In this document: positions 20,266-37,634 of the stretch, one piece after another
How positions within the stretch are numbered: the stretch's first letter is position 1
Layout: each line of letters begins with the position of its first letter
From: Deltaproteobacteria bacterium
GTDB taxonomy: Bacteria; Desulfobacterota; Syntrophorhabdia; Syntrophorhabdales; Syntrophorhabdaceae
Direction: 5' to 3'
Assembly: GCA_029553295.1 (NCBI GenBank)
Contig: JAKPCK010000136.1
Location: 1-40,006, forward strand
Length of the DNA: 40,006 bases
Translations under genes and position numbers: made by a program
The notes under the pieces: generated by a model
What the model was told of the DNA's origin: nothing
The model's input: the letters and a program-made list of their open reading frames with translations, nothing else
Database searches by the model: none

Positions 20266-22020
20266 CTATATGGTTGAGAGGATTTTTTCTGCCTCTTGAA
20301 TCAATTTTCTATTCTTCTCATTTTTATACTGGATTAATGCACGGTGCATCTTCCTTTCTTTAAATGTTTTGGCCACATATAGTTTTTCACCGGTAAAGGG
20401 ATGTTCTTCTGTGTAATACATGCAACCGGATGCTGTCATGGGAAGGGGTATAAAGTCCTGAATCTGTTCAGGATAGATGCCTCTCCTTTTCAGGTAAAGG
20501 GATGTAAGATAGGCATCTTCAAGCGTTGAGCCTGGATGGCCACATATAAAGTAGTGGACAAGGTATTGTTCTTTTTTCAGTCTCCTGTTTATCTCTTTAT
20601 ATCTATTGGCGAATTCCTCATAGATTTCAATATGGGGTTTATTCATTAACTTTAATATGCGATTAATGCAGTGTTCAGGGGCGACCTTCATCTGACCGCT
20701 TATATGATTCTTACAGAGTTGGATGAGGTATTCTGTAGATCCTCTGTCAACAAGAAGGTCATATCTTATGCCGCTTTCTATAAAAACGTGCTTTACCTTT
20801 GGGAGGGAAAGGACCTTGCTCAATAGTTCTATGGCATCACTATATCCTATATGGAGATTTTTGCATCTTTTAGGCATCAGGCAATGTTTTTCTGTGCATG
20901 TCCCTTTTTTATCCCATAATGGACACTCTGCCTTATAGAGATTTGCTGTAGGGCCTCCTATATCAGTTATAGTACCCCTGAAGTCTTTCCTTTCTGTTAA
21001 AAGCCTTGCCTCTTCTATAATAGACTCTTTACTCCTTGACTGGATAATCCTGCCCTGGTGCATGGAAAGACCGCAGAAACTGCATTCACCGCAACAACCC
21101 CTGTGGGAGACAATAGAAAACCTGACTGTCTCAAAGCCAGGGATACCCCCTATTTTTTTGTAGGATGGATGTATATCTCTTGCAAAGGGGAGTCTGTAGA
21201 TTGCATCGAGCTCACTGGTCTTTAGGGGTAGTGCCGGCGGATACTGGACTACATATCGGTTTCCATGTCTCTGGATTAACACCTTTGCCCTGAAAGGGTC
21301 CTGATTCCTGTATGTTTGTCTAAATGCCTCATTGAATTTCTTCTTCTCCTCTTTTATCTCTTCATATGAAAGGACCTCTATGATATCTAACTCTTCCCTT
21401 GTGATGTCTTCCCTATCCTTGACAATGACCGCTGTCCCCCTTATACCTCTTAGGCCTATGCCTTTTTTAACCCTGTGGGCTATCTCTACAACCTGTTTTT
21501 CACCCATTCCATAGACAAGTATATCTGCCCTGGAATCAAAGATGATAGACCTCCGCACATCATTATCCCACCAGTCATAATGGGCAAACCTCCTGAGGCT
21601 TGCCTCTATCCCCCCTATTACTATTGTTATATCCCCGAAGGCCTCACGGACACGGTTTGCATAGACTATTGTTGCCCTGTCTGGACGGAGCCCTATCTTG
21701 CCTCCCGGTGAATAATCATCTTTTCTCCTTGGTTTCTTGTTTGCCGTATAGTTTGCTACCATGGAATCCATATTCCCGGCGGTTATACCGAAAAAGAGCC
21801 TCGGTCTGCCCAGTTTTTTAAAATCATCTATACTTTTCCAGTCTGGCTGGGCTATGATTCCCACCTTATATCCTGCATCCTCCAGCACCCTGCCTATTAT
21901 TGCGGTTCCGTATGATGGGTGGTCTACATAGGCATCCCCTGTTATGAGGATTATGTCCAGGGTATCCCATCCTTTTTCTCTTACCTCTTCTATGGATATG
22001 GGTAGAAAGCCTTTTCTCAT
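20266..22020 (-). CDS. ygiQ: YgiQ-family radical SAM protein (UPF0313)
   Basis: 584 aa. The radical SAM cluster motif appears as CCGECSFC (C-x3-C-x2-C, near residue 301), preceded by the family's N-terminal domain (FLPISIEE, GDAYVDHPS, GGIEASLRR). The C-terminal part has IPLPMTASGCMYYTEEHPFTGE-type residues diagnostic of YgiQ. Its substrate is unknown. It starts 55 nt behind hcrA on the same strand, so it may be a read-through partner of the hcr operon, but YgiQ is widespread in other contexts. No good ribosome site precedes the ATG. Confidence 0.9.
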   Translation of the reverse strand: MRKGFLPISIEEVREKGWDTLDIILITGDAYVDHPSYGTAIIGRVLEDAGYKVGIIAQPDWKSIDDFKKLGRPRLFFGITAGNMDSMVANYTANKKPRRKDDYSPGGKIGLRPDRATIVYANRVREAFGDITIVIGGIEASLRRFAHYDWWDNDVRRSIIFDSRADILVYGMGEKQVVEIAHRVKKGIGLRGIRGTAVIVKDREDITREELDIIEVLSYEEIKEEKKKFNEAFRQTYRNQDPFRAKVLIQRHGNRYVVQYPPALPLKTSELDAIYRLPFARDIHPSYKKIGGIPGFETVRFSIVSHRGCCGECSFCGLSMHQGRIIQSRSKESIIEEARLLTERKDFRGTITDIGGPTANLYKAECPLWDKKGTCTEKHCLMPKRCKNLHIGYSDAIELLSKVLSLPKVKHVFIESGIRYDLLVDRGSTEYLIQLCKNHISGQMKVAPEHCINRILKLMNKPHIEIYEEFANRYKEINRRLKKEQYLVHYFICGHPGSTLEDAYLTSLYLKRRGIYPEQIQDFIPLPMTASGCMYYTEEHPFTGEKLYVAKTFKERKMHRALIQYKNEKNRKLIQEAEKILSTI

Positions 22021-22075: not shown

Positions 22076-24436
22076 TCATTTTATGATCTTTATGGGCAGT
22101 GTCTTTGACCTGAAACCTGTGGCATTATACACAGCATTGGCTATAGCAGCAAGTATACCTGATACATACCCCTCACCCACCTCTTTTGTATGGAAGTGGT
22201 GGTCTTTTTTGTATTCCTCTGTGATTATGTCTATGTAATCGTTTTCTACCATCTCTGTTGCCAGGGGTAGTTTATATTCAAGAAAAGAAGGGTTCAGGGT
22301 AATACCGTTTTTCATCAAGACCTCCTCTGAGACCGCCTGACCGGTGGCCATTGATACCTGACCATCAATCTGTCCTTCTACAAGGAGGGGGTTGATGGGG
22401 AATCCACAGTCGTGTGCTGTGGTTGCCTTTAAAACCCTTATCCTGCCCGTTGCCATATCTACCTCAACCTCTGCAACCTGTGCATCAAAGGCATAGCTGT
22501 CACTCCATGAACCTTTAGCATTTTTCAGGCTCGGGCCTATCTCTGCATCCTTAAGCCCCCTGAAGAATCCCCTGCCAATGATGGGGTTTCCTTTATTTTC
22601 GTAGATGTGTCTTGCTATGGCCCTGGAAAAAGGTATGGATCTCTCGGGCATGTCGCAGACATATATCCTCTTTCCCCTTAAAAAGAGCCTGTCTGAATCT
22701 ATACCAAGCTCGGCGGATGCAGAGGTAAGTATCTGTCTTCTTGCATCCTCTGCTGCCTTTTTTACTGCATTGCCTGTTACATAGGTGAGGCCGCTTATCC
22801 ATGAGCCGATATCAACAGGTGTTGTATCTGTATCACCGGCAATAATCTCCACATCCTCTATATTCAGACCGAGTTCTTCTGCAACAATCTGTGAGAGGAT
22901 GGTCTCTGAACCCTGGCCTATATCCAGTGCCCCTGTCAGACACCTCACTGTCCCGTCATCATTGAACTGGACTATGGCAGCAGAGTTATTGGGATAGATG
23001 AGGGTCCCTGTAAAGTAACCACTTACACCTATACCTATACCCCGCCTAAACCTCTCTCCAAGATTTTTTTGATTATAAGGAAAGATATCATCCTGTCCCC
23101 TGTGTTCTGCTTTTTTCTCTCCATAATCTGCCCCATATTTTTTATATCTCTCCCTGAAGCGTGTTTTTTCTGCTATTTCCTCTATACACTCTATAAGACC
23201 TGCGTTTTTTATTGTGTCCCCATTAGGCAGGATGTCGTCTTTCATACGGGCGTTCTTCAATCTTATATCAATGGGGTCAATACCGAGTTCCTCAGCAATC
23301 ATGTCCATTTGTGATTCCACTGCAAAACGTATCTGAGGGGCACCGTGTCCCCTCTGAGGTGCCCTGACAGGATTATTTGTATAGATGGAATAGCCAATGT
23401 AATCAAGGGCAGGGATCCTGTATGGCAGGATTAAAAAGCCCCAGCATAGAAATATGCATACAACACCGCTTCCCCTATAGGCACCGCAACTGTTGAAGCA
23501 CCTAACCTTCTGACCGAGTATTTTTCCATCCCTGGCAACAGCAGTCTCAAGGTCAACCACCATAGGCTGGCCATGCCTGAAATACGAGAATATCTCATCC
23601 CTTTCAGCCACATATTTTACAGGTCTTCCTGTCCTTATGGATAAAAGGGATGTGCAGAACTCATGGGAAAACAGGTCTATCTTTCCACCAAAGGCACCGC
23701 CAACCCATATCTTGTGGACACTTATTCTGCTGGAGGGCATATTAAGGGTCCTGGCGAGGTGCATCCTCTTTCTGAATACACCCATTCCAGATGTCCAGAC
23801 GTGGAGTTTGCCGCCTTTATCATAGTGGGCGACTGTTGTCTGTGGTTCAAGGTAACAATGGGTCCTCAGTTGCGCCTCAAATCTGTCCTTTTTTACAAGA
23901 TACGCATCCTTGAATGCCTTATCTATGTCACCAAAAGAGTTTGCGCACCTACCGCCAATATTTTTATAAGGCTCAATCAAGTCTGGCAGTTCATTAGGGT
24001 GTATCTCCGGGGAATCTGGTTTAATGGCTTCAAATATATCAAAAACTGGGGGGAGCTCTTCGTATTCTACCTTTATGGCATCCAGTGCCTCCATTGCCGT
24101 ATCCTCATCTAATGCAGCAACAGCAGCCACCTCCTCGCCTATATATCGAACCCTGTCATTGGCAAGGCAGTATTGGTCTGCAGGGTATCTCGGTGTCTCT
24201 ACAAAACCGTGACGGACACCCCATGCATCCCTCCCTGTGATGATTGCCTTGACCCCTGGTATCCTTTCTGCCTTTGAAGTGTCGATATTCACAATCCTTG
24301 CATGGGGCAGGGGGCTCCTCAGGATCTTTGCCCACAGCATATCAGGGAGATAGATATCAGCGGTATATTTTGCCTCCCCGGTGGCCTTCTGCGGCCCATC
24401 TACCCTGGGGATTCTTTTACCTATCATGTCTGTCAT
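22076..24436 (-). CDS. hcrA: 4-Hydroxybenzoyl-CoA reductase, molybdopterin (alpha) subunit
   Basis: Mo-cofactor subunit of the enzyme that removes the para-hydroxyl of 4-hydroxybenzoyl-CoA to give benzoyl-CoA. 786 aa, xanthine oxidase family: N-terminal 'ald_Xan_dh' domain (PRVDGPQKATGEAKYTADI), cofactor-binding GGAFGGK and APQRGHGAPQ, GQGSETI, and the active-site Glu in KEVGEGY near the C-terminus. It overlaps hcrC by 20 bp. Identification as 4-hydroxybenzoyl-CoA reductase rests chiefly on the linked HcrB with its extra Fe-S insert. Related CoA-ester or aldehyde-acting molybdenum hydroxylases are the main alternative. Confidence 0.82.
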   Translation of the reverse strand: MTDMIGKRIPRVDGPQKATGEAKYTADIYLPDMLWAKILRSPLPHARIVNIDTSKAERIPGVKAIITGRDAWGVRHGFVETPRYPADQYCLANDRVRYIGEEVAAVAALDEDTAMEALDAIKVEYEELPPVFDIFEAIKPDSPEIHPNELPDLIEPYKNIGGRCANSFGDIDKAFKDAYLVKKDRFEAQLRTHCYLEPQTTVAHYDKGGKLHVWTSGMGVFRKRMHLARTLNMPSSRISVHKIWVGGAFGGKIDLFSHEFCTSLLSIRTGRPVKYVAERDEIFSYFRHGQPMVVDLETAVARDGKILGQKVRCFNSCGAYRGSGVVCIFLCWGFLILPYRIPALDYIGYSIYTNNPVRAPQRGHGAPQIRFAVESQMDMIAEELGIDPIDIRLKNARMKDDILPNGDTIKNAGLIECIEEIAEKTRFRERYKKYGADYGEKKAEHRGQDDIFPYNQKNLGERFRRGIGIGVSGYFTGTLIYPNNSAAIVQFNDDGTVRCLTGALDIGQGSETILSQIVAEELGLNIEDVEIIAGDTDTTPVDIGSWISGLTYVTGNAVKKAAEDARRQILTSASAELGIDSDRLFLRGKRIYVCDMPERSIPFSRAIARHIYENKGNPIIGRGFFRGLKDAEIGPSLKNAKGSWSDSYAFDAQVAEVEVDMATGRIRVLKATTAHDCGFPINPLLVEGQIDGQVSMATGQAVSEEVLMKNGITLNPSFLEYKLPLATEMVENDYIDIITEEYKKDHHFHTKEVGEGYVSGILAAIANAVYNATGFRSKTLPIKIIK

Positions 24437-24938
24437 CCCCTGAATCCCCTTGCATATTTTTATCTCTCACCGCCTCAATTGCCTCGATAATCTTGTTGTA
24501 ACCGGTACACCTGCATATATTCCCCTCTATGGCCTTTTGTATCTGTCTCCTTGAGGGTCTGGGGTTTTCTCTCAGCAGGGCTGTTGCTGTAAGTATCATC
24601 CCTGGGGAACAGAAACCACACTGGATTGCCCCATGCTCGATGAACGATTCCTGGATAGGTGTCAGGCCCCTGTCTTTTGCAAGACCCTCTATGGTGGTGA
24701 TACTTTTATTGTGTGCCTCTATGGCCAGCATGAGACAGGCAAGGACAGGCCTTCCCTCTACAAGTACAGTGCATGCCCCGCATTCCCCCTGGCCACATGC
24801 ATCCTTTGTCCCGGTGAGCAGTAGCTTTTCCCTCAATACCTCAAGGAGTGTGTCCCTGTGTCTTATAAGGACATCATAGTCTATGCCGTTTACATTTATA
24901 CGGATTATTTTTTTATCGTTTTTATCCTTTAATGACAT
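24417..24938 (-). CDS. hcrC: 4-Hydroxybenzoyl-CoA reductase, [2Fe-2S] (gamma) subunit
   Basis: 173 aa with two [2Fe-2S] sites typical of the family: a plant-type ferredoxin site (CGQGECGACTVLVEGRPVLAC) and the C-terminal helical site (QCGFCSPGM ... CRCTGYNKI). It passes electrons between the FAD/Fe-S subunit and the Mo site. The ATG overlaps hcrB by 10 bp, with GGAGG 8 nt upstream. Confidence 0.9.
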   Translation of the reverse strand: MSLKDKNDKKIIRINVNGIDYDVLIRHRDTLLEVLREKLLLTGTKDACGQGECGACTVLVEGRPVLACLMLAIEAHNKSITTIEGLAKDRGLTPIQESFIEHGAIQCGFCSPGMILTATALLRENPRPSRRQIQKAIEGNICRCTGYNKIIEAIEAVRDKNMQGDSGDDRHDR

Positions 24939-25915
24939 GTATCTGCCTCCAAAAGGGCATCAAAGACCATCTGCCTGACCATTAATCTTCTTTTTTTAGA
25001 AGAATCCTCAAGGTTATCTACAGGGTGGGCATTTTCGAAGGCCAAATGGGCAATCTCTTCCATAAGTTGGGGGGATAGGGTTTTACCATAAAATACATGG
25101 CCCATGTCCTTGATTATAAAAGGTCGGGATGCAACCCCTGTGAGACAGATCCTCAGATCAGCAATAATGTCCTTTTCCCTTTTTATTGCAATGGCAACCC
25201 CTGCAAGGGGAAAGTCAACCCCATCCCTTATCCTGTATTTTTTGTAGGTCGAAAAAAGACCTTCTTCAGGGGAAGGAATCCTTATGGATGCAAGGATTCT
25301 ATTGCCCTCCACAGTAATAGGTCTTTTTCCATCCATGGAGAATATATCCTCAACAGGGATTTCATGGGTGCTTTCAGAGGTATAAAACACCGCCACGGCC
25401 TTTAAGGCTATAAGGACAGGTGCCATATCCCCCTGATATACAGCAAAGCACCTCCTGCTGTTTTTTACAGCGTGACAGATATTGCCCCCTCTTTTATGAC
25501 ATGGAGGGACAGTTTTTTGCCACTGTCTTGAACGGTTATAAAACATGCAGCGTGTATCCTGAAGGATATTGCCTCCAATGGTTGCCATATTCCTGATCTG
25601 GTGCGATGCTACCTGGATAGCTGCCTCATGGATGGCTTTATACGGTTTGACCTTTTCAAAGAAATGGGCTACATAATTAAGCATTGCTGTGGCACCTATA
25701 TCTATCTCTTTGTTTTTATTGACCGATATATTACCAAGGCCTCTTATCATGGAAAGGGATATGATATGCTCTGGTTCAACGAGCCTTAATCTCATCCTGT
25801 TTAAGAGTTCTGTACCCCCTGCCATAATAATGCCCCTGCCATCTATTTTCTCTAAAAGTTTTAAGGCAGCATTTAATGACTTAGGTGTGTGATGTTGAAA
25901 ATAAGGTAACCTCAT
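24929..25915 (-). CDS. hcrB: 4-Hydroxybenzoyl-CoA reductase, FAD and [4Fe-4S] (beta) subunit
   Basis: 328-aa FAD subunit of the CO-dehydrogenase-medium type (IMAGGTELL, ATIGGNILQ). It has an insertion at residues 123-156 with Cys at 123, 139, 147 and 156. The spacing 16-8-9 equals that of the extra [4Fe-4S] cluster of Thauera aromatica HcrB (Cys 122/138/146/155 as I recall), which supplies low-potential electrons for ring reduction and runs the enzyme as a reductase. Ordinary xanthine dehydrogenase FAD subunits lack this insert, as does the second trio in this window. It is 10 nt behind the VOC gene. Confidence 0.9.
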   Translation of the reverse strand: MRLPYFQHHTPKSLNAALKLLEKIDGRGIIMAGGTELLNRMRLRLVEPEHIISLSMIRGLGNISVNKNKEIDIGATAMLNYVAHFFEKVKPYKAIHEAAIQVASHQIRNMATIGGNILQDTRCMFYNRSRQWQKTVPPCHKRGGNICHAVKNSRRCFAVYQGDMAPVLIALKAVAVFYTSESTHEIPVEDIFSMDGKRPITVEGNRILASIRIPSPEEGLFSTYKKYRIRDGVDFPLAGVAIAIKREKDIIADLRICLTGVASRPFIIKDMGHVFYGKTLSPQLMEEIAHLAFENAHPVDNLEDSSKKRRLMVRQMVFDALLEADTCH

Positions 25916-25925
25916 CTCTTGCAGG

Positions 25926-26357
25926 TTATTTCCCTTTTTCTATGAGTTCGATGAGCATCCTATCCGAGGCCATGAAAAAGGCTATCTTTGTATGAGTGGC
26001 ACAGGCCCTTTTAAAGTTTTCATCGTAGGCTATGCACTCTACTGGAGGTGAAACCACCTTGAAGCCTTTTTTCTTGAATTCCTCTGTCTTTTTTTGGATA
26101 TCATCTACCTCAAAACACAGGTGGTGCAACCCGCCTCCCTTTTTTTTAAGGAAGTTTGTAACAGGAGACGTGTCGTCAACAGGCTCAAGGAGTTCTATGT
26201 GGACATTATTATCAAACCCTACATCTATAAAGAGCCCTGTCACCTTTTGGATGGGGTCTGTTGCGGGTTCAGTGGTAGTGTGCAGGCCTATGTCATAGAA
26301 CAGCCTTTTATATTCCTCTATGTCCTTGACAATTATCCCTATATGATTAAGCCTCAT
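25926..26357 (-). CDS. VOC-family protein, methylmalonyl-CoA epimerase-like
   Basis: 143 aa with two vicinal-oxygen-chelate halves. Candidate metal ligands of the epimerase type are seen: His5 (LNHIGI), Glu55 (IELLEP), His78/79 (GGLHHLCFEV) and Glu137 (LIELIE). Methylmalonyl-CoA epimerase is the nearest match by eye, but no mutase genes are nearby. Its position as first gene before hcrB suggests another CoA-ester role in aromatic degradation; this is inference. Confidence 0.75.
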   Translation of the reverse strand: MRLNHIGIIVKDIEEYKRLFYDIGLHTTTEPATDPIQKVTGLFIDVGFDNNVHIELLEPVDDTSPVTNFLKKKGGGLHHLCFEVDDIQKKTEEFKKKGFKVVSPPVECIAYDENFKRACATHTKIAFFMASDRMLIELIEKGK

Positions 26358-26410
26358 GTATCTATTCTATAATAACCATTGCAAAAAATGCCAGCTAAAT
26401 ATTAAGACCT

Positions 26411-26881
26411 TTAAATTAATTTTTTAAGTAGTTTTTTTGGGTTACCTTTTTTTGTTAATCTTGGTGCTTCATCATCATAATCTTTTTCTTCAAGCTCATA
26501 TTCTATTATTAATTCTTCCATTTTTGATGGTGTAATAAAGGCTATACCGTATCTTTTTGCCTCATCGATGATTGTTCTGTCGGAAGTTACAACGACCATA
26601 CCTGAGGGCTTTTTTCTTATCCACTCCATTATCAACTCGTCTGCAGTTTCGTTTTCTTTTGTATAGATAACCTCTATGCCTTTGTAATTATCCCTTTGCC
26701 TCGTAAGAGAGATGCTTTTATAGGCATCAAAAACAACTGTTATTTTATTGGGTTTTTGTTTTTTATAACTGACAAGCCTTTCAAGGAGATATTTTCTTTG
26801 CATTTCAAGGTTAACTGTATCTAAATTTACAGGTTTTATCCTATTTATATAGTTATATCAATCAATTGCTAAGTGAGGCAT
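26411..26881 (-). pseudogene. YacP-like NYN-domain RNase gene interrupted by an in-frame TGA
   Basis: An ATG at 26879-26881 opens a frame reading MPHLAID, then TGA (26858-26860), then YNYINRIKPVNLD, running without a break into the 130-aa frame that starts at 26803. The expected motif at the TGA is IDGYN, the metal-binding Asp motif that opens YacP/NYN nucleases, so TGA replaces a Gly codon (GGA to TGA needs one change). The rest (TVVFDAYKS, ETADELIMEWI, VVTSDRTI) matches the family. The residual ORF from 26803 lacks the first catalytic motif. A sequencing error would restore a 156-aa gene. It is upstream of the VOC/hcr genes on the same strand. Confidence 0.75.
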
Positions 26882-26949
26882 ATTTTTATTGTAGATAAAA
26901 GAGGGGTTTTATTCAAGCTTTAAATCCAGTGAAACTTCTCATATTTTTT

Positions 26950-26978
26950 TTGACAATGTCGTATATAACTAATACTAT
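26950..26978 (+). promoter_or_regulatory. Candidate promoter for the adenylate cyclase
   Basis: A consensus TTGACA (26950-26955) is followed after 17 nt by TACTAT (26973-26978). The transcription start would fall at about 26985, which is the annotated GTG start, raising the possibility of a leaderless mRNA. Confidence 0.45.
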
Positions 26979-26984
26979 ATCCCT

Positions 26985-27884
26985 GTGAAGGGAAGAAAAG
27001 ATTACATTCATTTATTTGGTATTTCTTTAATATTTTTCATTCTGTCATTAATTAGCATAGTTTTTAACTCATTCGAATCACTCAGAAATATTATATTTAA
27101 ATATATAGACCCGTTCACTGTAAATATATTCATGAATTTTATGTTCCTTTATTTCATTGGTTTGCTTCTATTTACTTTCTATCGTTTGAAAAAAGTGGAG
27201 ATGGAAAAAAGGAAACTTAAAGATGAGGTGCTTTTGAAGATAAGGGATGAGATTGCCAGATATGTTGCCCCTCCTACAATGGAAATTGTGGAAAAAATAG
27301 CAACAGGAAAAAAAGTAGATACAGGTGAAATAGTTAACGTAACTATTCTTTTTTCAGACATCAGAGGATTTACACAGATTGGTGAAAATATGAATCCCGA
27401 TGAACTGTTTAAGGTTCTAAACCTTTGCCTTTCAATCCAGATACAAATAGTGGAAAAATATCATGGTATTATAGATAAATTAAACGGCGATGAAATCATG
27501 GCTGTTTTTCATGGCCCGGAGGCAACCGAAAACGCCTTGAATTGTGCTTTGGAAATAATTAAAAACCTCCGGAATCCAGAATTTAAAATGGAAAGAGACT
27601 GGATAGGTGTAGGAATTGGTATCAACACAGGTCCTGCATATTTAGGACCTCTCGGGTCAGAAAGTCGAAAGCAATTTACCCTTGTTGGAAATACAGTCAA
27701 TGTTGCCGCACGATTATGTGGAATAGCAAAGAAATTCGAGATCCTCTTTGGAAAAAATACGGAAGAATTGATAAAAGATAAAGACTTTAATTATGAATTC
27801 TTAGGAAAAGTTTCTTTAAAAGGTCTAAGTGCCCCTTTTGAAGTGTTTAGATTGAGAAATAATGAAGTGGCCAACCTTTTTTAG
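26985..27884 (+). CDS. Membrane-bound class III adenylate cyclase
   Basis: 299 aa: two N-terminal membrane helices (about residues 9-27 and 43-63), a short coiled linker, and a class III cyclase domain from about residue 95. Metal-binding Asp125 (FSDIRGFT) and Asp169 (NGDEIMAVF) are present, as is the purine-selecting Lys165. Thr232 (FTLVGNTVN) and Arg243 follow, so an ATP substrate is likelier than GTP. There is no recognisable sensor domain beyond the membrane part. GTG at 26985 is the only standard start in frame before an upstream TAA, and it has no ribosome site. It lies alone between the broken NYN gene and an IS relic. Confidence 0.85.
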   Translation: MKGRKDYIHLFGISLIFFILSLISIVFNSFESLRNIIFKYIDPFTVNIFMNFMFLYFIGLLLFTFYRLKKVEMEKRKLKDEVLLKIRDEIARYVAPPTMEIVEKIATGKKVDTGEIVNVTILFSDIRGFTQIGENMNPDELFKVLNLCLSIQIQIVEKYHGIIDKLNGDEIMAVFHGPEATENALNCALEIIKNLRNPEFKMERDWIGVGIGINTGPAYLGPLGSESRKQFTLVGNTVNVAARLCGIAKKFEILFGKNTEELIKDKDFNYEFLGKVSLKGLSAPFEVFRLRNNEVANLF

Positions 27885-27920
27885 ACAGCCTTTAGCATTT
27901 TTTTTAAGCGGTTTTGCCGC

Positions 27921-28430
27921 TCATACTGCATTCTCAATATTTTGCAATGTTTCATAGCACACTTCATCCGGTGTTTTCTCGTTTAACCCCTGATTGTGCC
28001 TCCATATATTGTATTTATCAATAAAACGTGTAATCTCCCTTCTCGCATGACTTATTGATTCATAAGCCTCTAAGTATACTTCCTGTTATTTTAGGGTTTT
28101 CCAGAAATGTTCTTGATGTTGTTCTTTAATAGAATGTCTATAAATTCCATAGAGGTAAACTGACCCCCTGATCTGTATTGAATATATCAGGTTTTCCGTA
28201 TTTATATATTGCTTCCTCTATGGCTTCTATGCAGAAGGATACATAAAGGGTATTAGATAATCTAAAGGATAATATCTTTATTTTTGCCCATTCCATAATG
28301 GCTACAGGGTAACAGAAACCTCTTATAGCACCATATTTAATTGGCCCTTGTAATATTGAATTCTATTGATATACCTAACGTCCATTTGCGTGTTCTGCCT
28401 GTGTTGGCAGTGGCTGAAATTATTGTAGCA
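27921..28430 (-). pseudogene. Degraded IS3-family transposase (OrfB, integrase-core fragment)
   Basis: Read on the minus strand, short in-order pieces match IS3-family OrfB: GFCYPVAIMEW, LSFRLSNTLYVSF, KYGKPDIFNTDQG, SMEFIDIL, FWKTLK, EVYLEAYES, RFIDKYNIWRHNQGLNEKTP, ending at a TGA at 27921-27923. There is a -1 frameshift near 28161-28166, an apparent deletion of about 15 codons near 28105-28115, and an in-frame TAA at 28086-28088. The N-terminal part is lost or beyond recognition. No terminal inverted repeats were found. It abuts the LysR gene's 3' end. Confidence 0.8.
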
Positions 28431-28437
28431 TGTCTGT

Positions 28438-29349
28438 TCAAAGATGTTCTATATAATTAACTCCATGGTTTCTATTTGAAAGTAGTATATCAATAAATGC
28501 CTGGGCAGGCTTTGAGAGCGTCATATTACTCAAAAATGCGATCTTTGAGTGCATCTTGAGCCTGAGATCCTTAATCTTTATCTCTCTGAGCAGCCCATTA
28601 TCTATCTCCCTCTGGACAACCGGCCTTACCATAAAGGATATACCTTCACCACTTATTAACAGTTCCTTTATGAAATCGAGGTTACTTGCCTCATAGAGGA
28701 CTGTAGGTGTCAGACCCCTTTCTTGGAATACATCCATAACCACCCTCCTTGTCCCTGAGCCCTCTTCCCTCATTATTATAGGTGTCTGTGCGATATCCTC
28801 AAAGGTCACATACTCTTTATTAAATATCTTATGTTCGGGAGAGGCTATAAATATTATCTCCTCTTCACTGAATTCAATGGTGTTTATAGCCTTTGGATAA
28901 TCCGTATGTGCCACTATGGCAAGCTCATTATGGAGGCTGAAGAGGCTCTGTATCATCTCTAACGAGCTACCTTCATTGAGTGTAATACTGATATTGGGAA
29001 ACCTCGAGTGAAATTTTGATATAAAACCGGGCATGAGATATCGGGCATAGGTCTTTGTCGTCCCTATATGGATGCTACCCTTTTTTAGCTCTGATAGTTC
29101 CTTTAAGGCCTTCTCTGCCTGATTTTCCAGCTCGAATATCTTTCTGGCATAATCGAGGAGGATATGTCCTGGTTCAGTGAGATATATCCTGTTTCCTGCC
29201 TTGTTAAAAAGCTTTATATTTAAGAGTTCTTCAAGATTTTTTATATGCAGCGAGACCGCAGGCTGACTTATGAAGAGTCTCTCTGCAGCCTTTGAAAAAT
29301 TCAACTCCATGGCAGTTATATAAAAAACACGGAGCTGATTTAGATTCAT
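28438..29349 (-). CDS. LysR-type transcriptional regulator
   Basis: 303 aa with an N-terminal winged helix-turn-helix (MNLNQLRVFYITAMELNF, AAERLFISQPAVSLHIKNLE) and a periplasmic-binding-like effector domain (about residues 90-295). The ATG at 29349 follows GGGGGGAAG; the longer frame from 29400 adds 17 residues without a ribosome site. It is divergent from the UbiD-family gene, with two dyad sites between them, so it most likely controls that operon in response to a pathway compound. The effector is unknown. Confidence 0.93.
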   Translation of the reverse strand: MNLNQLRVFYITAMELNFSKAAERLFISQPAVSLHIKNLEELLNIKLFNKAGNRIYLTEPGHILLDYARKIFELENQAEKALKELSELKKGSIHIGTTKTYARYLMPGFISKFHSRFPNISITLNEGSSLEMIQSLFSLHNELAIVAHTDYPKAINTIEFSEEEIIFIASPEHKIFNKEYVTFEDIAQTPIIMREEGSGTRRVVMDVFQERGLTPTVLYEASNLDFIKELLISGEGISFMVRPVVQREIDNGLLREIKIKDLRLKMHSKIAFLSNMTLSKPAQAFIDILLSNRNHGVNYIEHL

Positions 29350-29376
29350 CTTCCCCCCCAATTGTAAAATTATCTC

Positions 29377-29391
29377 ATAAGTTTTACTTAT
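29377..29391. promoter_or_regulatory. Candidate LysR operator 1 (T-N11-A dyad)
   Basis: Perfect inverted repeat ATAAGT-TTT-ACTTAT, containing the T-N11-A pattern (TAAGTTTTACTTA). Its centre is 33 bp (about three helical turns) upstream of the second dyad. It probably acts as the high-affinity recognition site and may also repress the LysR gene, whose start is 28 bp away. Confidence 0.55.
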
Positions 29392-29410
29392 ATGCAACAT
29401 AAAAAATATG

Positions 29411-29423
29411 TATTTGACAAATA
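29411..29423. promoter_or_regulatory. Candidate LysR operator 2 (T-N11-A dyad over the -35 box)
   Basis: TATTTGACAAATA is a perfect 13-bp palindrome with T-N11-A form. It contains the TTGACA -35 hexamer of the downstream promoter, as expected for an activation site. Confidence 0.5.
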
Positions 29424-29441
29424 TTTTTCAGATGTTAGAAT
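29414..29441 (+). promoter_or_regulatory. Candidate promoter of the UbiD-to-PpsA operon
   Basis: TTGACA (29414-29419), 16 nt, TAGAAT (29436-29441). A strong ribosome site AAGGAGGGG (29466-29474) precedes the ATG at 29477. Confidence 0.55.
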
Positions 29442-29476
29442 TGCAGAAATAGCAATACAATTTATAAGGAGGGGTT

Positions 29477-30883
29477 ATGCAGATAAAAGATATGAGAGAT
29501 TTTATTGCATTGGCAGAAAAGGAGGGTGAATTAAAGAGGATAAAGGCGGAGGTGGACTGGAATCTTGAGCTATCACATATCGCCAAGTTGAACGAAGAGA
29601 AACACGGTCCTGCACTTTTGTTTGAGAATGTAAAAGGATATAAATCCCCTGTTATAACCAGTGTCTGCACAGAGACAAAAAGACTCGCCATGATAATGGG
29701 AGAGCCCCTTAATTCGAGCCTTGTGGATCTTATGCGGGCATGGGTGGAAAAGGGCAAAAAATCCATACCCCCTAAATGGGTTGATAAGGCACCATGTAAG
29801 GAAAACATCATGATGGGGGATGATGTGGATCTATTTAAGTTTCCTGCCCCAAAATTTTATCCAAGAGATGGAGGCAGATACTTTGGCACTGCTCATTTCT
29901 TTATATCAAAAGACCCTGAAACAGGCTGGATAAACCTGGGCACCTACAGGGCACAGCTACTTGATAAGAACCATCTGGGTACACAGTTCATCAAAGGAAA
30001 ACATGCAGATATAATGCTGAAAAAATATGCGGCCATGAAGAAACCCATGCCTGTTGCCTGTGTTATAGGCTGTGACCCGCTTTTATTTTTAACAGGTGCT
30101 GCCCGTATCTCTGCCTTTGTATCAGAGTATGATTTTGCCGGTGCTGTACGTGGTGAGCCCATAGAGGTCATAAGAGGCGAGACTGTTGACCTGCCTATCC
30201 CTGCAACTGCAGAGATTGTAGTAGAGGGCGAGGTTGACCCTAATGCCTTCATGGACGAAGGACCTTTTGGTGAATACACAGGATACTATTCCGGTGTAGG
30301 GACAGATAAAAGGAACTTTGTAAAGGTTAACTGCGTTACATACAGGAATAATCCCATATTCTGGGGCACAACAGTGGGCCGTGCTGTCACGGACACCCAC
30401 ATGACCATGGCATTGACCTATGGCGCAACCCTCTGGCAGCAGCTTACAGATATGAAGATCCCGGGCATAAAGGCCGTATATTGTCCCCCTGAGGGTGCAG
30501 GAAGATTCATAGCCATTGTATCGGTAAAGCAGATGTATCCAGGCCATGTAGACCAGGTGGGCACAGCAGTAATATCTACAGAGATGGGTGCATATGGCTT
30601 AAAGACAGTAATTATAGTGGATGACGATATAGACCCGTGGGATATACCGAGGGTCTTATATGCCATTAGCTTTAGATTCCAGCCAAACCGCTGCCAGATA
30701 ATCCACAGGGGTCGCTCTACACCCCTTGACCCATCCCTTCCCATTGATGCCAGAGATATTACAGGCAGGATTATCATAGATGCCACAATACCTTACGAGT
30801 GGAAAGAAAAGCCCATCCCCATTGAACTCGACCCTGAGATGGTTAAAAAGATTCAGGCAAGATGGGGTGAGTTAGGCTTATAA
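29477..30883 (+). CDS. UbiD-family (de)carboxylase, possible phenylphosphate/hydroxyarene carboxylase
   Basis: 468 aa of the UbiD family, which uses prenylated FMN to (de)carboxylate aromatic or conjugated acids. The catalytic triad is visible: Arg158 (GTYRAQ), Glu261 and Glu266 (EGPFGE). With a PpsA-like gene downstream and a CoA ligase next door, carboxylation of a phenol or phenylphosphate to a hydroxybenzoate is the likeliest role; Thauera phenylphosphate carboxylase uses UbiD-like subunits. A plain hydroxybenzoate decarboxylase is the alternative. No UbiX-type prenyltransferase is seen in this window. First gene of the LysR-controlled operon. Confidence 0.85.
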   Translation: MQIKDMRDFIALAEKEGELKRIKAEVDWNLELSHIAKLNEEKHGPALLFENVKGYKSPVITSVCTETKRLAMIMGEPLNSSLVDLMRAWVEKGKKSIPPKWVDKAPCKENIMMGDDVDLFKFPAPKFYPRDGGRYFGTAHFFISKDPETGWINLGTYRAQLLDKNHLGTQFIKGKHADIMLKKYAAMKKPMPVACVIGCDPLLFLTGAARISAFVSEYDFAGAVRGEPIEVIRGETVDLPIPATAEIVVEGEVDPNAFMDEGPFGEYTGYYSGVGTDKRNFVKVNCVTYRNNPIFWGTTVGRAVTDTHMTMALTYGATLWQQLTDMKIPGIKAVYCPPEGAGRFIAIVSVKQMYPGHVDQVGTAVISTEMGAYGLKTVIIVDDDIDPWDIPRVLYAISFRFQPNRCQIIHRGRSTPLDPSLPIDARDITGRIIIDATIPYEWKEKPIPIELDPEMVKKIQARWGELGL

Positions 30884-30902
30884 AAATCTTCAAATAAGAT
30901 TT
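30884..30902 (+). other. Small hairpin just after the UbiD-family stop
   Basis: AAATCTT (30884-30890), loop CAAAT, AAGATTT (30896-30902): a perfect 7-bp stem directly after the stop codon, with no T-run behind it. It may protect the mRNA 3' end or pause translation; function unknown. Confidence 0.4.
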
Positions 30903-30910
30903 GAGGAGCC

Positions 30911-30956
30911 AGGGGTTTAAAGGTTACAGTGTCAAAGACCTTAACCTTTAGCCCCT
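30911..30956 (+). other. Long intercistronic hairpin (terminator-like or processing element)
   Basis: AGGGGTTTAAAGGTTA (30911-30926) pairs with TAACCTTTAGCCCCT (30942-30956), with one bulge and a 15-nt loop. A mixed T-rich stretch follows (gaacttttaatctttaatttta), but not a continuous T-run. It sits between the UbiD-family gene and the ligase gene and could give partial termination or differential stability. Confidence 0.55.
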
Positions 30957-30995
30957 GATTCTCGAACTTTTAATCTTTAATTTTAGGGGGGATCC

Positions 30996-32642
30996 ATGAG
31001 ACCAATAAGATACACAGATGAAATGATAGAGGAGTTTAAGGCAGAAGGCTACTGGACAGACGAGGTATTTACAGACTTCTGGGAGAGGAATGCAAAGGAA
31101 TTAGGGGACAGGGAGGCACTCGTTGATTCAAAATACAGGGTTACATGGAAACAGGCATGGAAACTATTAAATAACCTGGCCTATGCATGGGTGAGCCTGG
31201 GTATACCCAAGGATTCTCGTATTATAATACAGGCGCCCAATAGCGTCTACGGATTTATCGCCAGGATTGCCGCTGACAGGGCAGGCCTCATCTCCCTTAC
31301 CGTATACCCTTATCTCAGGGAAAAGGAACTGACCTATATGGTGGAGAAGACAGAGGCAGTTGCTGTAGCAATCCCGCATATCTATAGAAAATTTAATTAC
31401 CTTGAGATGTATAAAGAACTGAAAAAGACATCACCTTACCTCAAGTATTTCTTCCTCTTTGAAGAGGAGGTCCCTGAGGGCGTACCAGAGGGCTCTTACT
31501 CCCTCATAAAACTCGCCAACCAGGATGTAGATGAGTCAAAATACAAGGAGCTCGATGCAAGGAGATTCAGCCCTTACTACGATGTAGGGCTCCTTACGAG
31601 CACAACAGGGACAACAGGGCTGCCCAAGCTTGTAGAGTGGCCTATTGCCTCAAGGGTATGCACATCCAAGGCAAGGGTAGACATTTGGCATCTCACAAAG
31701 GACGATATTACTGTTGCCATAGCACCCCACGCCGGTGGTGCAGCAGGGACGCTCACATACTTTGCAGCACCCCTTGTAGGGGCAAAGACAGTAATGATGG
31801 AGGAATTCGACCCTGAGGGCGCCTTAAAGCTCATAGAAAAGGAAAAGGCAACAGCTATTGGGGTTGTGCCCACACACCTCGTCAGGATGCTCGAGGTGGA
31901 TGAGACAAAATATGATTTGAGCTCACTACGTTTTATCCGCTCTGCCGGTGGCTACCTACCACCTCAGGTGGCAGAGGAGGCAGAGAGGAGATACAAGGCA
32001 ATAATCACAAGTGACCTTGGGACACAGGATGTGGGCTCTGTTTCTGGATGCACAATAGATGACCCCGGTGAGATAAGAAGAAGGACAGTGGGCAAGATGC
32101 TTCCTGGCAATAAGGTAAAACTACTCGATGATAACGGCAATGAGGTAAAAGAAGGAGAGCCTGGTCAGCTCTGGTTCAGGGGTCCCCATGCACCTGCCGG
32201 GTATTACCGTGACCCTGAAGCCACTGCCGCTGTGTTCGATAAGGATGGCTGGACAACAACAGGGGACATAGTCAAGTCAGAGGATGGATACCTCTGGATT
32301 ATGGGCAGGGCAAAGGATATGATTATCCGTGGAGGCCAGAATATATATCCTGCCGAGATAGAAGGTATACTCAATGAACACCCAAAGATTGCAAATGTGG
32401 CTATTGTCGGCTATCCTGATAAGGAGATGGGGGAGAGGGCCTGTGCATATGTTGTCTTAAAACCAGGGGAGACCTTCACAAAGGAAGAGATGGTAGAGTT
32501 TCTCAAATCTAAAAAACTTGCCGCATATAAACTACCGGAGAGGCTGGAGATAGTGGATTCCCTGCCCATAGTAGGTGATTCAGGAAAGGTGGATAAAAAG
32601 GCACTCAAGGCAGATATAGAAAAAAAGGTGGCAGGGGGATAG
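30996..32642 (+). CDS. AMP-forming acyl/aryl-CoA ligase
   Basis: 548-aa ANL-superfamily enzyme that adenylates a carboxylic acid and transfers it to CoA. The P-loop TSTTGTTGLPK, TTGDIVKSEDGYLWIMGR, the hinge DMIIRGGQNIYPAEIE and the C-terminal catalytic Lys in GKVDKKALK are all present. The A5 motif, usually Y-G-x-T-E, reads DLGTQDVGS, similar to aryl-acid ligases of the EntE/DhbE type, so a hydroxybenzoate substrate is plausible. The ribosome site AGGGGGGAT precedes the ATG. The Tm-1-like gene follows 4 nt after the stop. Confidence 0.85.
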   Translation: MRPIRYTDEMIEEFKAEGYWTDEVFTDFWERNAKELGDREALVDSKYRVTWKQAWKLLNNLAYAWVSLGIPKDSRIIIQAPNSVYGFIARIAADRAGLISLTVYPYLREKELTYMVEKTEAVAVAIPHIYRKFNYLEMYKELKKTSPYLKYFFLFEEEVPEGVPEGSYSLIKLANQDVDESKYKELDARRFSPYYDVGLLTSTTGTTGLPKLVEWPIASRVCTSKARVDIWHLTKDDITVAIAPHAGGAAGTLTYFAAPLVGAKTVMMEEFDPEGALKLIEKEKATAIGVVPTHLVRMLEVDETKYDLSSLRFIRSAGGYLPPQVAEEAERRYKAIITSDLGTQDVGSVSGCTIDDPGEIRRRTVGKMLPGNKVKLLDDNGNEVKEGEPGQLWFRGPHAPAGYYRDPEATAAVFDKDGWTTTGDIVKSEDGYLWIMGRAKDMIIRGGQNIYPAEIEGILNEHPKIANVAIVGYPDKEMGERACAYVVLKPGETFTKEEMVEFLKSKKLAAYKLPERLEIVDSLPIVGDSGKVDKKALKADIEKKVAGG

Positions 32643-32646
32643 ATAG

Positions 32647-33861
32647 ATGAAAAAGATACTCGTTATCTCAACCCTCGATACAAAGGGGGTTGAGACCTTC
32701 TATCTGCGGGATAAGATAAGGCAGCTCGGCAAGACACCTGTTGTAATTGATATATCTATGAGACAGGCAGAGGGCTTCCGGGCTGATGTGACACCGGAAG
32801 AAGTAGCAAAGGCAGGGGGTAGCACCTATGAGGCGATACTGGCATCCCGTGAGAGGGCAAAAAATACAGCCATTATGACCAGAGGTGCATCCAGTGTGGC
32901 CCTTGAGATGTGGAAAAGAGGTGAGCTTGACGGGGTGATTGGCATAGGTGGCTCCACAGGCTCCCTTATGGCCACAGATGTAATGAGGGCACTGCCTTTT
33001 GGTGTCCCAAAGATGATGATATCATCAACAGCTGCCCTGCCGGGCATGTCTACGAGATACATAGATATAGGTGATATAGCCCTTTTTCATTCTGTTGTGG
33101 AGATCTCAGGGCTCAGCGAGGTATTAAAGAATGTCATAGACAGGGCTGCCCATGCCATATGCAGTATGGCAGAGGTGGCACCTTTAGGAGGGGTAAGGAA
33201 AGAGGGGGGTAGAAAGGCTATAGCCATTACCATGCTTGGACCATGTGAGAAATGCGCATCCAGGGTCCGTCAGGCCCTGGAATCAAAGGGTTTTGATGTT
33301 ATTGGCTTTTCTGCTGCCGGCATAGGTGACAGGGCAATGGAGGCCATGGTGGAACAGGGGCTTTTCAGCGGGGTTATTGACCTTGCCCCTGGTGCTGTAA
33401 TCGAGCACCTCGTGGGGGGTATGAGGGATGCTGGGCCTACAAGGATGGAGACAGCAGGGAGATCAGGTATCCCCCAGGTCATATCAACCTGTGGTTTAAA
33501 TCATATAACACCACCTAAGTCAAAATACACAGATGACCATAAAAGCAGGAGAAAATACGACCTTGATAAGTTCAGGACATGGCTTCGGGCATCCCCTGAT
33601 GAGCTTAAAAAGGCGGCCATGGAGTTTAAAAGAAAGCTTAACAATGCATCAGGTCCTGTAAAGATAGTCCTGCCCATGAAGGGGTGGTCTTCTGTTGATG
33701 TCCCGGGGAGCGCAACCTATGACCCTGAGGAGGATAAAATCTTTGTTAATGAATTGAAGAACGGGCTAAAAAAGGATATAGATATTATCGAGGTTGATGC
33801 CAATATGGAGGAGCCTGGCTTTGCCGAGGCAGTGGTAAGGGCGTCAATCAGTATATTTTAA
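32647..33861 (+). CDS. Tm-1-like ATP-binding domain protein (UPF0261)
   Basis: 404 aa matching the UPF0261 / Tm-1 N-terminal family (VISTLDTKGVETFYLRDKI at the start, GIGGSTGSLMATDVMRALP, MISSTAALPGMSTRY). The family binds ATP in the plant Tm-1 protein, but its bacterial reaction is unknown. There is no membrane segment or signal. Gene order (ligase, this, molybdenum trio) places it inside a catabolic operon, so it may carry out an ATP-dependent step or a C-C bond step. This is inference only. Confidence 0.8.
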   Translation: MKKILVISTLDTKGVETFYLRDKIRQLGKTPVVIDISMRQAEGFRADVTPEEVAKAGGSTYEAILASRERAKNTAIMTRGASSVALEMWKRGELDGVIGIGGSTGSLMATDVMRALPFGVPKMMISSTAALPGMSTRYIDIGDIALFHSVVEISGLSEVLKNVIDRAAHAICSMAEVAPLGGVRKEGGRKAIAITMLGPCEKCASRVRQALESKGFDVIGFSAAGIGDRAMEAMVEQGLFSGVIDLAPGAVIEHLVGGMRDAGPTRMETAGRSGIPQVISTCGLNHITPPKSKYTDDHKSRRKYDLDKFRTWLRASPDELKKAAMEFKRKLNNASGPVKIVLPMKGWSSVDVPGSATYDPEEDKIFVNELKNGLKKDIDIIEVDANMEEPGFAEAVVRASISIF

Positions 33862-33894
33862 GCAGTTATAAAACTTTGACTCAAGGAGGTATTG

Positions 33895-34779
33895 ATGCTT
33901 TTATTACCGAGGTTTGATTATGAGGAGCCAAAAGACCTTTCTGAGGCCTGCAGGATACTGGCAGGTCTAAAGGGTAATGGCAAGGTAATAGCAGGCGGGA
34001 CAGACCTGCTTGTTAATATGAAAAAGGGTCTTATCTCACCGACCTGTCTTGTCGGTATCAGTAAGATACCAGGTTTATCGGAGATAGAGCCTCAAAATGG
34101 CAGTATCTTCATAGGTTCAAATCTTATCGTGGCAAAATTAACAGAATTCGAGGTTATCAAAAAGAAATACCCCATGCTCTACGAGGCAGCATCTGTCCTT
34201 GGTTCACCGCTTATAAGGAATAGGGCAACCATAGGGGGAAATATTGTCACTGCAAGACCTGCTGCAGACCTGCCCCCACCCCTTATAGCCATGGGTGCAA
34301 GGGTCAGGTTAAAAAATAGAAGGGGGGAGCGGGAGGTAGAGCTCGACAGGTTTTTTAAAGGCCCTGGTGAGACCATTATAAAAAAAGATGAGATACTGAC
34401 AGGGATAATACTCGATGAACCACCAATATTCAGCGGGGGCAATTACATAAAACTCGGCCATAGAAAAGCCCTTGAGATTGCCATAGTCGCCGTGGCATCC
34501 TTTATAGTCCTTGACAAGCCAGATGGTATTATAATGGATGCAAAGGTCATATTAAGTTCAGTGGCACCAAAGGCAATCCATGCAGTCTCAGCAGAGAAGA
34601 CACTCATAGGTGAGAAACCAACAGACAAACTCATAGAAAGGGCTGCCAATCTTGCATCTCAGGATTGTTCACCCATAGATGACATAAGGGGAAGCGCCCA
34701 GTATCGCTGTGCTATGGTAGAGGTGCTCACAAAAAGGACATTGACAGCTGCATTGAAGCAGGCAAAAAAAAGTAGGTGA
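33895..34779 (+). CDS. Xanthine-oxidase-family FAD subunit (no 4Fe-4S insert)
   Basis: 294-aa FAD-binding subunit (VIAGGTDLLVN, ATIGGNIVTARPAADLPPPL). After ATIGGNI the chain goes straight into ARPAADLPPPL, where HcrB has its four-Cys insert, so this is the ordinary short form. The ATG at 33895 is chosen over the adjacent TTG because AAGGAGGT ends 4 nt before it. First of a FAD / 2Fe-2S / Mo trio (33895-37630) with the same gene order as the hcr trio but opposite orientation. The substrate is unknown. Confidence 0.9.
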   Translation: MLLLPRFDYEEPKDLSEACRILAGLKGNGKVIAGGTDLLVNMKKGLISPTCLVGISKIPGLSEIEPQNGSIFIGSNLIVAKLTEFEVIKKKYPMLYEAASVLGSPLIRNRATIGGNIVTARPAADLPPPLIAMGARVRLKNRRGEREVELDRFFKGPGETIIKKDEILTGIILDEPPIFSGGNYIKLGHRKALEIAIVAVASFIVLDKPDGIIMDAKVILSSVAPKAIHAVSAEKTLIGEKPTDKLIERAANLASQDCSPIDDIRGSAQYRCAMVEVLTKRTLTAALKQAKKSR

Positions 34780-34787
34780 GGTGAGGC

Positions 34788-35261
34788 ATGAAGAGAATAA
34801 TCAATCTAATAGTAAATAACAAGGCTTATGAGATAGCGGTTTTGCCAAACAGGACACTGACACAGGTATTGAGGGAGGATTTAAATCTCCTCGGGACAAA
34901 AGAGGGCTGTGGGATAGGTGACTGCGGTGCATGTACCGTGATATTAAACGGCAGGCCTGTAAATTCCTGCCTTGTCCTTGCTGTCCAGGCAAATGGATGC
35001 AACATCCAGACCATAGAAGGTGTTGCCGATGGAAATAATCTCCACCCTATCCAGGAGGCATTCGTGGAATATGGCGCTATACAGTGCGGTTTTTGCACCC
35101 CTGGCATGGTTCTATCTGCCAAGAGTCTCCTTGAGAAGAACCCAAAGCCCACTGAGATGGAGATAAGAGAGGCTATCTCAGGTAATCTCTGCAGATGCAC
35201 AGGATACCAGAAGATAGTGGAGGCAATCCAGGCTGCATCCAAGAAAATGAAGAAAAGATAA
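34788..35261 (+). CDS. Xanthine-oxidase-family [2Fe-2S] subunit
   Basis: 157 aa with both family clusters: CGIGDCGACTVILNGRPVNSC and QCGFCTPGM ... CRCTGYQKI. GAGGTGAGG just before the ATG is a good ribosome site. It is 8 nt behind the FAD subunit and 14 nt before the Mo subunit. It is the electron-transfer subunit of the second molybdenum enzyme. Confidence 0.93.
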   Translation: MKRIINLIVNNKAYEIAVLPNRTLTQVLREDLNLLGTKEGCGIGDCGACTVILNGRPVNSCLVLAVQANGCNIQTIEGVADGNNLHPIQEAFVEYGAIQCGFCTPGMVLSAKSLLEKNPKPTEMEIREAISGNLCRCTGYQKIVEAIQAASKKMKKR

Positions 35262-35275
35262 GGAGGAGAGATTAA

Positions 35276-37630
35276 ATGAATGATTTTAGCGTAATAAACA
35301 AAAGACTCCCAAGGGTTGATGCATGGTCAAAAGTTACAGGAGAAGCAAGATATGCAGCAGATCTCTCCATGCCCAATATGCTCTATGCTGTCCTATTACA
35401 GAGCCCACTTGCCCATGCAAAGATATTGAATATAGACACCTCTGCTGCAAAGAAGGTGGTAGGGGTTAAGGATGTAGTCACATATAAGGAGGCAGGGACA
35501 ATCCACTATGGTGTAAGCCCTGCAAGATACGATGAGACTATGTTCTGTTACGATAAGGTGCGATATGTGGGCGACGAGATAGCTGCTGTGGCAGCAGTTG
35601 ACTTTGAGACCGCCATGGAGGCGGTGTCCCTTATAAAGGTAGATTACGAGGAACTGCCTGTTTATCTCAATATATTCGATGCCATGAAAGAGGGTGCAGT
35701 CCCCATTCACGATGATTACCCCAATAATATAGGTGCTGAGGTCCATCAGGAGTTCGGCAATGTAGAGGAGGCACTGAAAGAGTGTGACTATGTCAGGACA
35801 GATAAATTTGTAAACAAAAAACAGGACGGTGGATTCTTGGAGCCCCAGGCGTGTCTTGCCCATTTTGATATGAACGGCAACTTAACACTGTATACATCCA
35901 CCCAGACACCCCACTATGTCCAGAGGACAGTCTCCATGGTCCTAAATATACCCATTGGAAAGGTCAAGGTTGTGAAACCTTATGTAGGTGGTGGCTTTGG
36001 CCCAAAGGCATCGGCAAATACTATAGAGCTTGCAGCAAGCCTATTATCAATGAGGACAGGCAGACCCGTAAAGATGGTCATGAGTAGGGAGCAGGTATTT
36101 ATGCACTCCCGTGGCAGACACCAGTTTTATCATGAGCTTACAACAGGCGTGAAAAAGGACGGGACAATCTATGCATTAAAGAATACATGCTATCTCGACG
36201 GGGGTGCATACTCAAGCTTTGGTATTGCTACTGTCTATTATGCAGGGTCCCTCCTTGGTGCACCATACAGACTCCCCAATATGAGATACGATGGATACAG
36301 GGTATATACGAATAAGCCTGCATGCGGTGCCCAGAGGGGTCATGGGGGTGTTGCAGCCAGGGCAGCATGGGAACAACAGCTCGATATTATTGCAGAGGAA
36401 CTGGGTATAGACCCCATAGAGTTCAGGCTTAAAAACGTGAGAGAAAAGGGAGAGGTGACCTGCAATGACTTTAATCTGAGCAGTTTTGGTATGAAGGAGT
36501 GTCTCGAGGCAATAAGGGACCGTTCAGATTGGAGAAACAAAAAGGGTAAGCTCCCCAAGGGAAAGGGTATTGGTGTGGCATGCGGATTTTTTGTATCCGG
36601 TGCCGGCTATCCCATCTATCGCTCTGAGACATTCCACTCTACAGCCATGATAAAACTCTCTGAGGACGGCGGTACTGTGGAACTCTATACTGCTGCAGCA
36701 GAGATAGGCCAGGGCTCAGATACAGTCCTCACCATGATAGCAGCAGAGGCACTGGGTGTGAGATACGAGGATGTGAAGATATACTCCGGGGATACAGATT
36801 ATGGTGTTGATCTGGGTGCATATTCATCACGTCAGACACTTATGTCAGGCCATGCAGTAAAGCAGGCAGCAGAGGACGTAAAAAAACAGGTCCTTGAGGT
36901 CCTATCAAAGAGGCTTAATGTCCCTGTTGAGGATATGGATATAAAAGACGGCTATATAGTCTTTAAGAAAGGGCAGGTAGACTTCTCAGGTATCAGGTCC
37001 TATTATGTAAAGGAGCACAGGGGATGGGCAGAGCAACCCGGTGATGATAAACTCACATTCAAGGAGGCGGCAAGGATTGCATATATCGAGAAGGGCACAA
37101 TAGTAAGCGCAGGGGCATATAAGCCCGGTGAGCTGGGAGGCAAATACAAAGGGGCCACCGTAGGGACATCGCCTGCCTATGGATGTTCAGCGCAGATTGT
37201 GGAGGTCACTGTGGATATGGAGACAGGCAAGGTTACTGTGGATAAGATGACAGATGCCCATGACTGCGGTTTTGCCATTAACCGCACCAATGTAGAGGGA
37301 CAGATGCAGGGTTCTCTCTCTATGGGTCTTGGGGAGGCACTCTTTGAAGAGGTGAAGTTTGATGAAAAAGGCAGGGTTGCAAACCCTACATTCGGTGAAT
37401 ATCGAATCCCTACAGCACTTGACATGCCCAATGTAAATACGATAATTATTGAGAGTAACGAACCAAATGGCCCATTCGGGGCAAAAGAGGTTGGAGAAGG
37501 GGCTATTATGCCGACCATCCCTGCTATATTAAACGCTATTTATGATGCCGTAGGCGTAAGGATCGATGAACTCCCTGTAACATCAGAACGCATCTACAAT
37601 GCCATAAAGGAAAAAGAAAGGAAGAAATAG
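35276..37630 (+). CDS. Xanthine-oxidase-family molybdopterin subunit, substrate unknown
   Basis: 784 aa with the full family layout: N-terminal PRVDAWSKVTGEARYAADL, cofactor-binding GGGFGPK, AQRGHGG, GQGSDTV, and the catalytic Glu in KEVGEGA near residue 745. It resembles HcrA in length and order but differs at the cofactor motifs (GGGFGPK against GGAFGGK) and in an added stretch around residues 565-630. Without a 4Fe-4S insert in its FAD partner it may act as a hydroxylase or aldehyde/CoA-ester oxidase, or as a reductase at less extreme potential. AAGGAGGAG overlaps the previous stop. Confidence 0.85.
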   Translation: MNDFSVINKRLPRVDAWSKVTGEARYAADLSMPNMLYAVLLQSPLAHAKILNIDTSAAKKVVGVKDVVTYKEAGTIHYGVSPARYDETMFCYDKVRYVGDEIAAVAAVDFETAMEAVSLIKVDYEELPVYLNIFDAMKEGAVPIHDDYPNNIGAEVHQEFGNVEEALKECDYVRTDKFVNKKQDGGFLEPQACLAHFDMNGNLTLYTSTQTPHYVQRTVSMVLNIPIGKVKVVKPYVGGGFGPKASANTIELAASLLSMRTGRPVKMVMSREQVFMHSRGRHQFYHELTTGVKKDGTIYALKNTCYLDGGAYSSFGIATVYYAGSLLGAPYRLPNMRYDGYRVYTNKPACGAQRGHGGVAARAAWEQQLDIIAEELGIDPIEFRLKNVREKGEVTCNDFNLSSFGMKECLEAIRDRSDWRNKKGKLPKGKGIGVACGFFVSGAGYPIYRSETFHSTAMIKLSEDGGTVELYTAAAEIGQGSDTVLTMIAAEALGVRYEDVKIYSGDTDYGVDLGAYSSRQTLMSGHAVKQAAEDVKKQVLEVLSKRLNVPVEDMDIKDGYIVFKKGQVDFSGIRSYYVKEHRGWAEQPGDDKLTFKEAARIAYIEKGTIVSAGAYKPGELGGKYKGATVGTSPAYGCSAQIVEVTVDMETGKVTVDKMTDAHDCGFAINRTNVEGQMQGSLSMGLGEALFEEVKFDEKGRVANPTFGEYRIPTALDMPNVNTIIIESNEPNGPFGAKEVGEGAIMPTIPAILNAIYDAVGVRIDELPVTSERIYNAIKEKERKK

Positions 37631-37634
37631 AAAG

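Follow-up and report, generated by a model that had tools for sequence, protein, structure and literature searches.

A stop codon in the active-site motif of a yacP-like gene from a Syntrophorhabdaceae bacterium: probable decay of a redundant, horizontally acquired copy

The yacP-like gene of this Syntrophorhabdaceae bacterium that carries an in-frame TGA in its catalytic motif is very probably a redundant copy that was acquired horizontally and has turned into a pseudogene. Despite this motif-killing stop, the organism retains a YacP ribonuclease through an intact native copy on another contig, C144. The interrupted copy lies at 26411-26881 on the minus strand of the window, by which we mean the whole 40,006-nucleotide stretch of DNA analysed. 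It opens with an ATG at 26881-26879, reads MPHLAID, meets the TGA at 26860-26858, and continues as YNYINRIKP and onward to a TAA at 26413-26411, with no further stop or frameshift. In a whole-genome search, the PF05991 (NYN_YacP) match runs across the stop (26435-26872, one TGA inside) with an E-value of 9.7e-27 and a score of 94.4 bits against a cut-off of 24.6. With an X at the stop, the window frame covers profile positions 1-147 at 94.9 bits. The original prediction was of a TGA replacing the glycine of an IDGYN motif, with a YacP/NYN frame on both sides, and coordinates, translation, and profile match all agree with it; the family assignment holds as well since PF05991 spans the stop. As the match crosses the stop and the glycine is invariant among relatives, the frame is not a product of chance.

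The position taken by the TGA (26858-26860, minus strand) is glycine in all 30 aligned family loci, a set made up of the organism's own C144 copy and 29 relatives fetched from a search that gave a yacP match in 47 of 60 genomes, with lower-scoring matches left unfetched. The codons at this site are GGA (21 loci), GGC (6), GGT (2), and GGG (1), and with GGN throughout, the proposal that the stop is one substitution away from a glycine codon is upheld. DGYN is also found in 18 of 18 genome_contigs loci (tblastn alignments), at least two of which appear to be the same contigs as loci of the first set, and a scan of viral contigs gave no yacP relatives. The placement of the stop in the active-site motif is likewise confirmed by the DGYN of the 30 relatives, all of which start translation upstream of the motif. 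The alternative that orthologues lack the motif and truly start at the internal Met is thereby dismissed.

Over nearly the whole profile, the window copy is alike to YacP/Rae1-type NYN ribonucleases (PF05991), and the PDB YacP entries 5mq8 and 5mq9 were matched by phmmer with an E-value of 8.1e-09. It differs from this type in that a stop interrupts its first catalytic motif and the conserved C-terminal tail of its relatives is missing. Sections of PMC11346440 describe ribosome-dependent mRNA decay by Rae1/YacP of B. subtilis and the requirement of another NYN ribonuclease for its first active-site Asp, the D13A variant being inactive, while a section of PMC6294520 describes metal binding by acidic clusters in NYN and PIN nucleases. 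In the window copy, the TGA splits the first conserved Asp from the remaining open frame. What remains is a 130-aa frame (26411-26803, minus strand) that lacks the first strand and this Asp, matching PF05991 at 80.8 bits over profile positions 27-147 only, which bears out the earlier statement that a protein begun at 26803 loses its first acidic residue. Judged from its sequence, the window frame would thus be a pseudogene of the YacP-like NYN family and not a working member.

The organism's own genome (G000) is a 2.25-Mb draft assembly of 157 contigs, and the second PF05991 gene, that on C144, encodes 165 aa without a stop (E 9.9e-27). Its sequence begins MPHIVIDGYNYINRI. The gene order on C144, nusB-ilvE-yacP, is identical to that of a congener (G002:C8), and for this reason the C144 copy is taken as the native gene; from the appearance of their sequences, we take its neighbours to be an ilvE-like aminotransferase and a nusB-like gene. 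Among the 60 genomes searched, no other has two full yacP matches, and one (G041) has two partial ones.

The TGA is not the only damage to the window copy. At the left junction of the insert in which it lies, the frame enters native DNA and terminates at 26413-26411, and the tail LPKK-x-RK, with a Pro and an Arg found in 30 of 30 relatives, is missing, so that the copy is without the basic C-terminal tail of orthologues in this bacterial family. A global alignment of the C-tail DNA with that of G015 was uninformative. Counted by leave-one-out, the window copy departs from the conserved core at six positions including the TGA (0-5 in the other 30 rows) and from the conserved tail at six (0-2 in the others). 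The claim of an otherwise clean gene therefore holds as regards stops and frameshifts, of which no others are present, but not with regard to the 3' end cut at the junction and the excess of departures at conserved positions.

An error of base calling or assembly, or a minor strain, could place a TGA in the assembly where the cellular copy has glycine, and such an error is made easier by the single substitution required, the lack of another stop in the frame, the low dN/dS given below, and the draft state of an assembly in 157 contigs. We regard it as improbable nonetheless, since the copy bears independent damage in the loss of its 3' tail at the insertion junction, has more deviations at conserved sites than any of the 30 relatives, and could be lost cheaply given the intact native copy. 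Taken together, the independent damage and the native copy would make this a truncated spare even if it had the glycine. The TGA is genuine in the assembly and lies within a damaged second copy of yacP, a common ribonuclease gene, very probably a case of ordinary gene decay.

The damaged copy is part of an insert of about 2.05 kb (26422-28474) that was delimited by blastn against congener G001 (G001:C12), GC content, and junction alignment. The blastn matches run from 23255 to 26421 and then from 28475 to 38105, at points 10 bases apart in G001, where the epimerase and LysR genes that the insert splits here are adjacent. The 2053 inserted bases have a GC content of 0.331, compared with 0.434 for the window, and contain, besides the window yacP, a gene for a cyclase and the remains of an IS3 transposase. 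The adenylate/guanylate cyclase ORF (26985-27884, plus strand; PF00211) is closest to that of G014, at 69% over the catalytic part. The IS3-family remnant (27863-28364, minus strand) has stops and frameshifts and matches rve_3 (E 7.5e-07) and rve (E 3.4e-05) in two frames; its 36.2 bits to NF033516 (IS3; E 4.1e-09) against a cut-off of 160 are the score expected of a broken piece. It shares 77% DNA identity with a copy on the organism's own contig C137 (G000:C137), whose transposase frames score 193 and 274.5 bits to NF033516, and similar DNA was found in 8 of 36 genomes searched, own included. The first 3000 bases of that contig (L107, G000:C137:1-3000) hold two different IS3-family transposase frames that are possibly nested or side by side. 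A putative role for IS3 is to have moved the insert, target duplications having been sought within the junction alignments alone. The insert may be composite, as the cyclase and the window yacP have different nearest genera. Three RNA family matches in 26300-28500 were all far below gathering scores and taken as chance, among them a SAM-II riboswitch match where the IS3 remnant ends (27882-27926, minus strand; 26.5 bits, gathering 44), which is probably chance.

On either side, the DNA resembles that of the organism's own genus, g1 (congeners G001 and G002). The glyoxalase/epimerase-like protein (25926-26357, minus strand) is 85% identical to that of both congeners, and the LysR-type regulator (28438-29400, minus strand) is 87% identical to that of G001 over residues 1-310 of 320, its last codons lying in or beside the insert. 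Most flanking proteins are 81-98% identical to those of G001:C12 or G002:C22, with one at 65%, and by these similarities the flanks belong to g1. Contamination by a neighbouring genus of the same family, g2 (G015 and G003), was considered for the contig and rejected, since the flanks match the congeners best and only the yacP insert departs. At the right junction (28438-28474, minus strand), the last dozen or so LysR codons differ from G001, and this gene may likewise owe its present end to the insertion. In G002, the contig ends beside the epimerase and different genes lie on the epimerase's other side, so the locus has undergone more than one rearrangement within the genus. An epimerase homologue in another genome (G011:C56:5020-5446) gave a match split in two, with one TAA and one TGA within it, and looks like another decayed gene. 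The polarity of the insert is read from one congener, G001, and could instead reflect loss in G001, which counts against the explanation we prefer.

The window copy itself is closest to genus g2, with 79% identity to G015 and 75% to G003, compared with 70% to the organism's own C144 copy and 70% to congener G002. In a tree of 31 rows, it groups with the two g2 rows (support 96/87), its place inside g2 being weakly supported (85/33), and the two g1 rows group together (92/83). The GC content is 0.31 for the window yacP, 0.33 for the G015 copy, and 0.42 for the native copy. By its tree placement and the synteny of the native copy, the window yacP is a xenologue, as it groups with another genus while the native copy groups with its own. 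Directly before its ATG is a promoter-like block, TTGAAT-17-TACAAT (26888-26916, minus strand), that is shared with the g2 orthologues in G015 and G003. A scan for promoter patterns gave no excess over shuffles (4 found, 3.0 expected), and it is the common upstream block that makes it likely that the gene travelled with its own promoter. Only six bases separate the -10-like hexamer from the ATG, so the transcript may be leaderless. Elsewhere in the window, a second YgiQ-type radical SAM gene (20266-22020, minus strand) lies outside the g2 group and has no match in congeners G001 and G002, the organism's other copy, on C14, grouping with g2 (100/98); it is perhaps another gene of mixed origin.

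The dN/dS of the window yacP is 0.114 against G015 and 0.107 against G003, and that between the intact g2 copies G015 and G003 is 0.100. Most of the divergence of the window copy thus accumulated under selection, before the transfer or before the stop. The value of about 0.11 against the nearest relatives points to long selection and so to a young stop, less likely an error, in line with the recent mutation originally proposed. That proposal is correct but passes over the foreign origin of the copy in an IS-associated insert, its shortened 3' end, and the intact native yacP. Weighing against gene decay are the roughly 130 remaining codons without a second stop or frameshift and a pairwise dN/dS no higher than that of the intact g2 copies, so either decay has begun very recently or the cell still retains the downstream part.

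In the history that we propose, a relative of genus g2 would have donated the second yacP, which may have arrived on the IS3-associated insert together with the cyclase gene. The insertion would have cut the 3' end of the gene so that its frame ran into native DNA and an early stop. With the native yacP on C144 already doing the job, the extra copy would have been free to decay, and one substitution could then have turned the glycine codon of the catalytic motif into TGA. Translation from the normal start would give seven residues, and a restart at 26803 would give a product lacking the initial beta strand as well as the first conserved Asp, for which reason no active ribonuclease is expected.

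Alternatively, the cell may express and retain the 130-aa frame from 26803 as an NYN protein without catalytic activity that modulates the native enzyme, a reading that we consider very improbable. The frame is open for its whole length and its dN/dS past the internal Met is 0.098 against G015, but intact copies give 0.100 over the same stretch, and a low value can predate the stop. All 30 relatives start upstream of the motif, the promoter-like block six bases from the normal ATG fits a start there and not one about 80 bases downstream, and the tail is missing too. We attach hardly any credence to the idea that translation of this frame continues, yielding a dead NYN domain able to bind and tune native YacP or its ribosomal site; if true, the stop would have served to convert a donated enzyme into a regulator.

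It is also most doubtful that selenocysteine insertion or read-through at the TGA yields a full NYN protein. The genome does contain selenocysteine machinery, SelA and a tRNA-Sec with anticodon TCA, and a hairpin begins about 13 bases past the TGA. This hairpin is weak (-7.3 kcal/mol, z -1.50, with 15 of 200 shuffles as good), however, and the identical stem and loop fold in the GGA-bearing copy of G015. The hairpin is thus a product of the coding sequence and, being present in a glycine-bearing relative, is not distinctive of the TGA copy as a SECIS-type element would be. The relatives have a Gly codon in 30 of 30 cases, neither Cys nor Sec, and Gly-to-Sec in the IDGYN motif would probably have no chemical rationale. 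With a weak hairpin shared with G015 and Cys in 0 of 30 relatives, read-through is unlikely. A change in the genetic code was rejected as well, since TGA terminates 6 of the 28 window frames taken as genes, a hand-picked set whose last entry (39479-40003) is possibly no gene.

Pseudogenised xenologues beside insertion sequences are a common class of bacterial pseudogene, and the same features recur here: the copy has a foreign placement, a low GC content, a nonsense mutation, and a truncated end, it lies beside an IS3 remnant, and the genome retains an intact native gene elsewhere. Nothing of note sets it apart, the stop simply happening to lie in the active-site motif. A literature search found no paper on pseudogenes in Syntrophorhabdaceae. 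The window yacP offers a small, clean example of a redundant xenologue that was probably lost soon after its arrival, and it means little beyond annotation. For annotation, it is a case in which the contig read alone would lead to the false inference that YacP has been lost or that the TGA is recoded.
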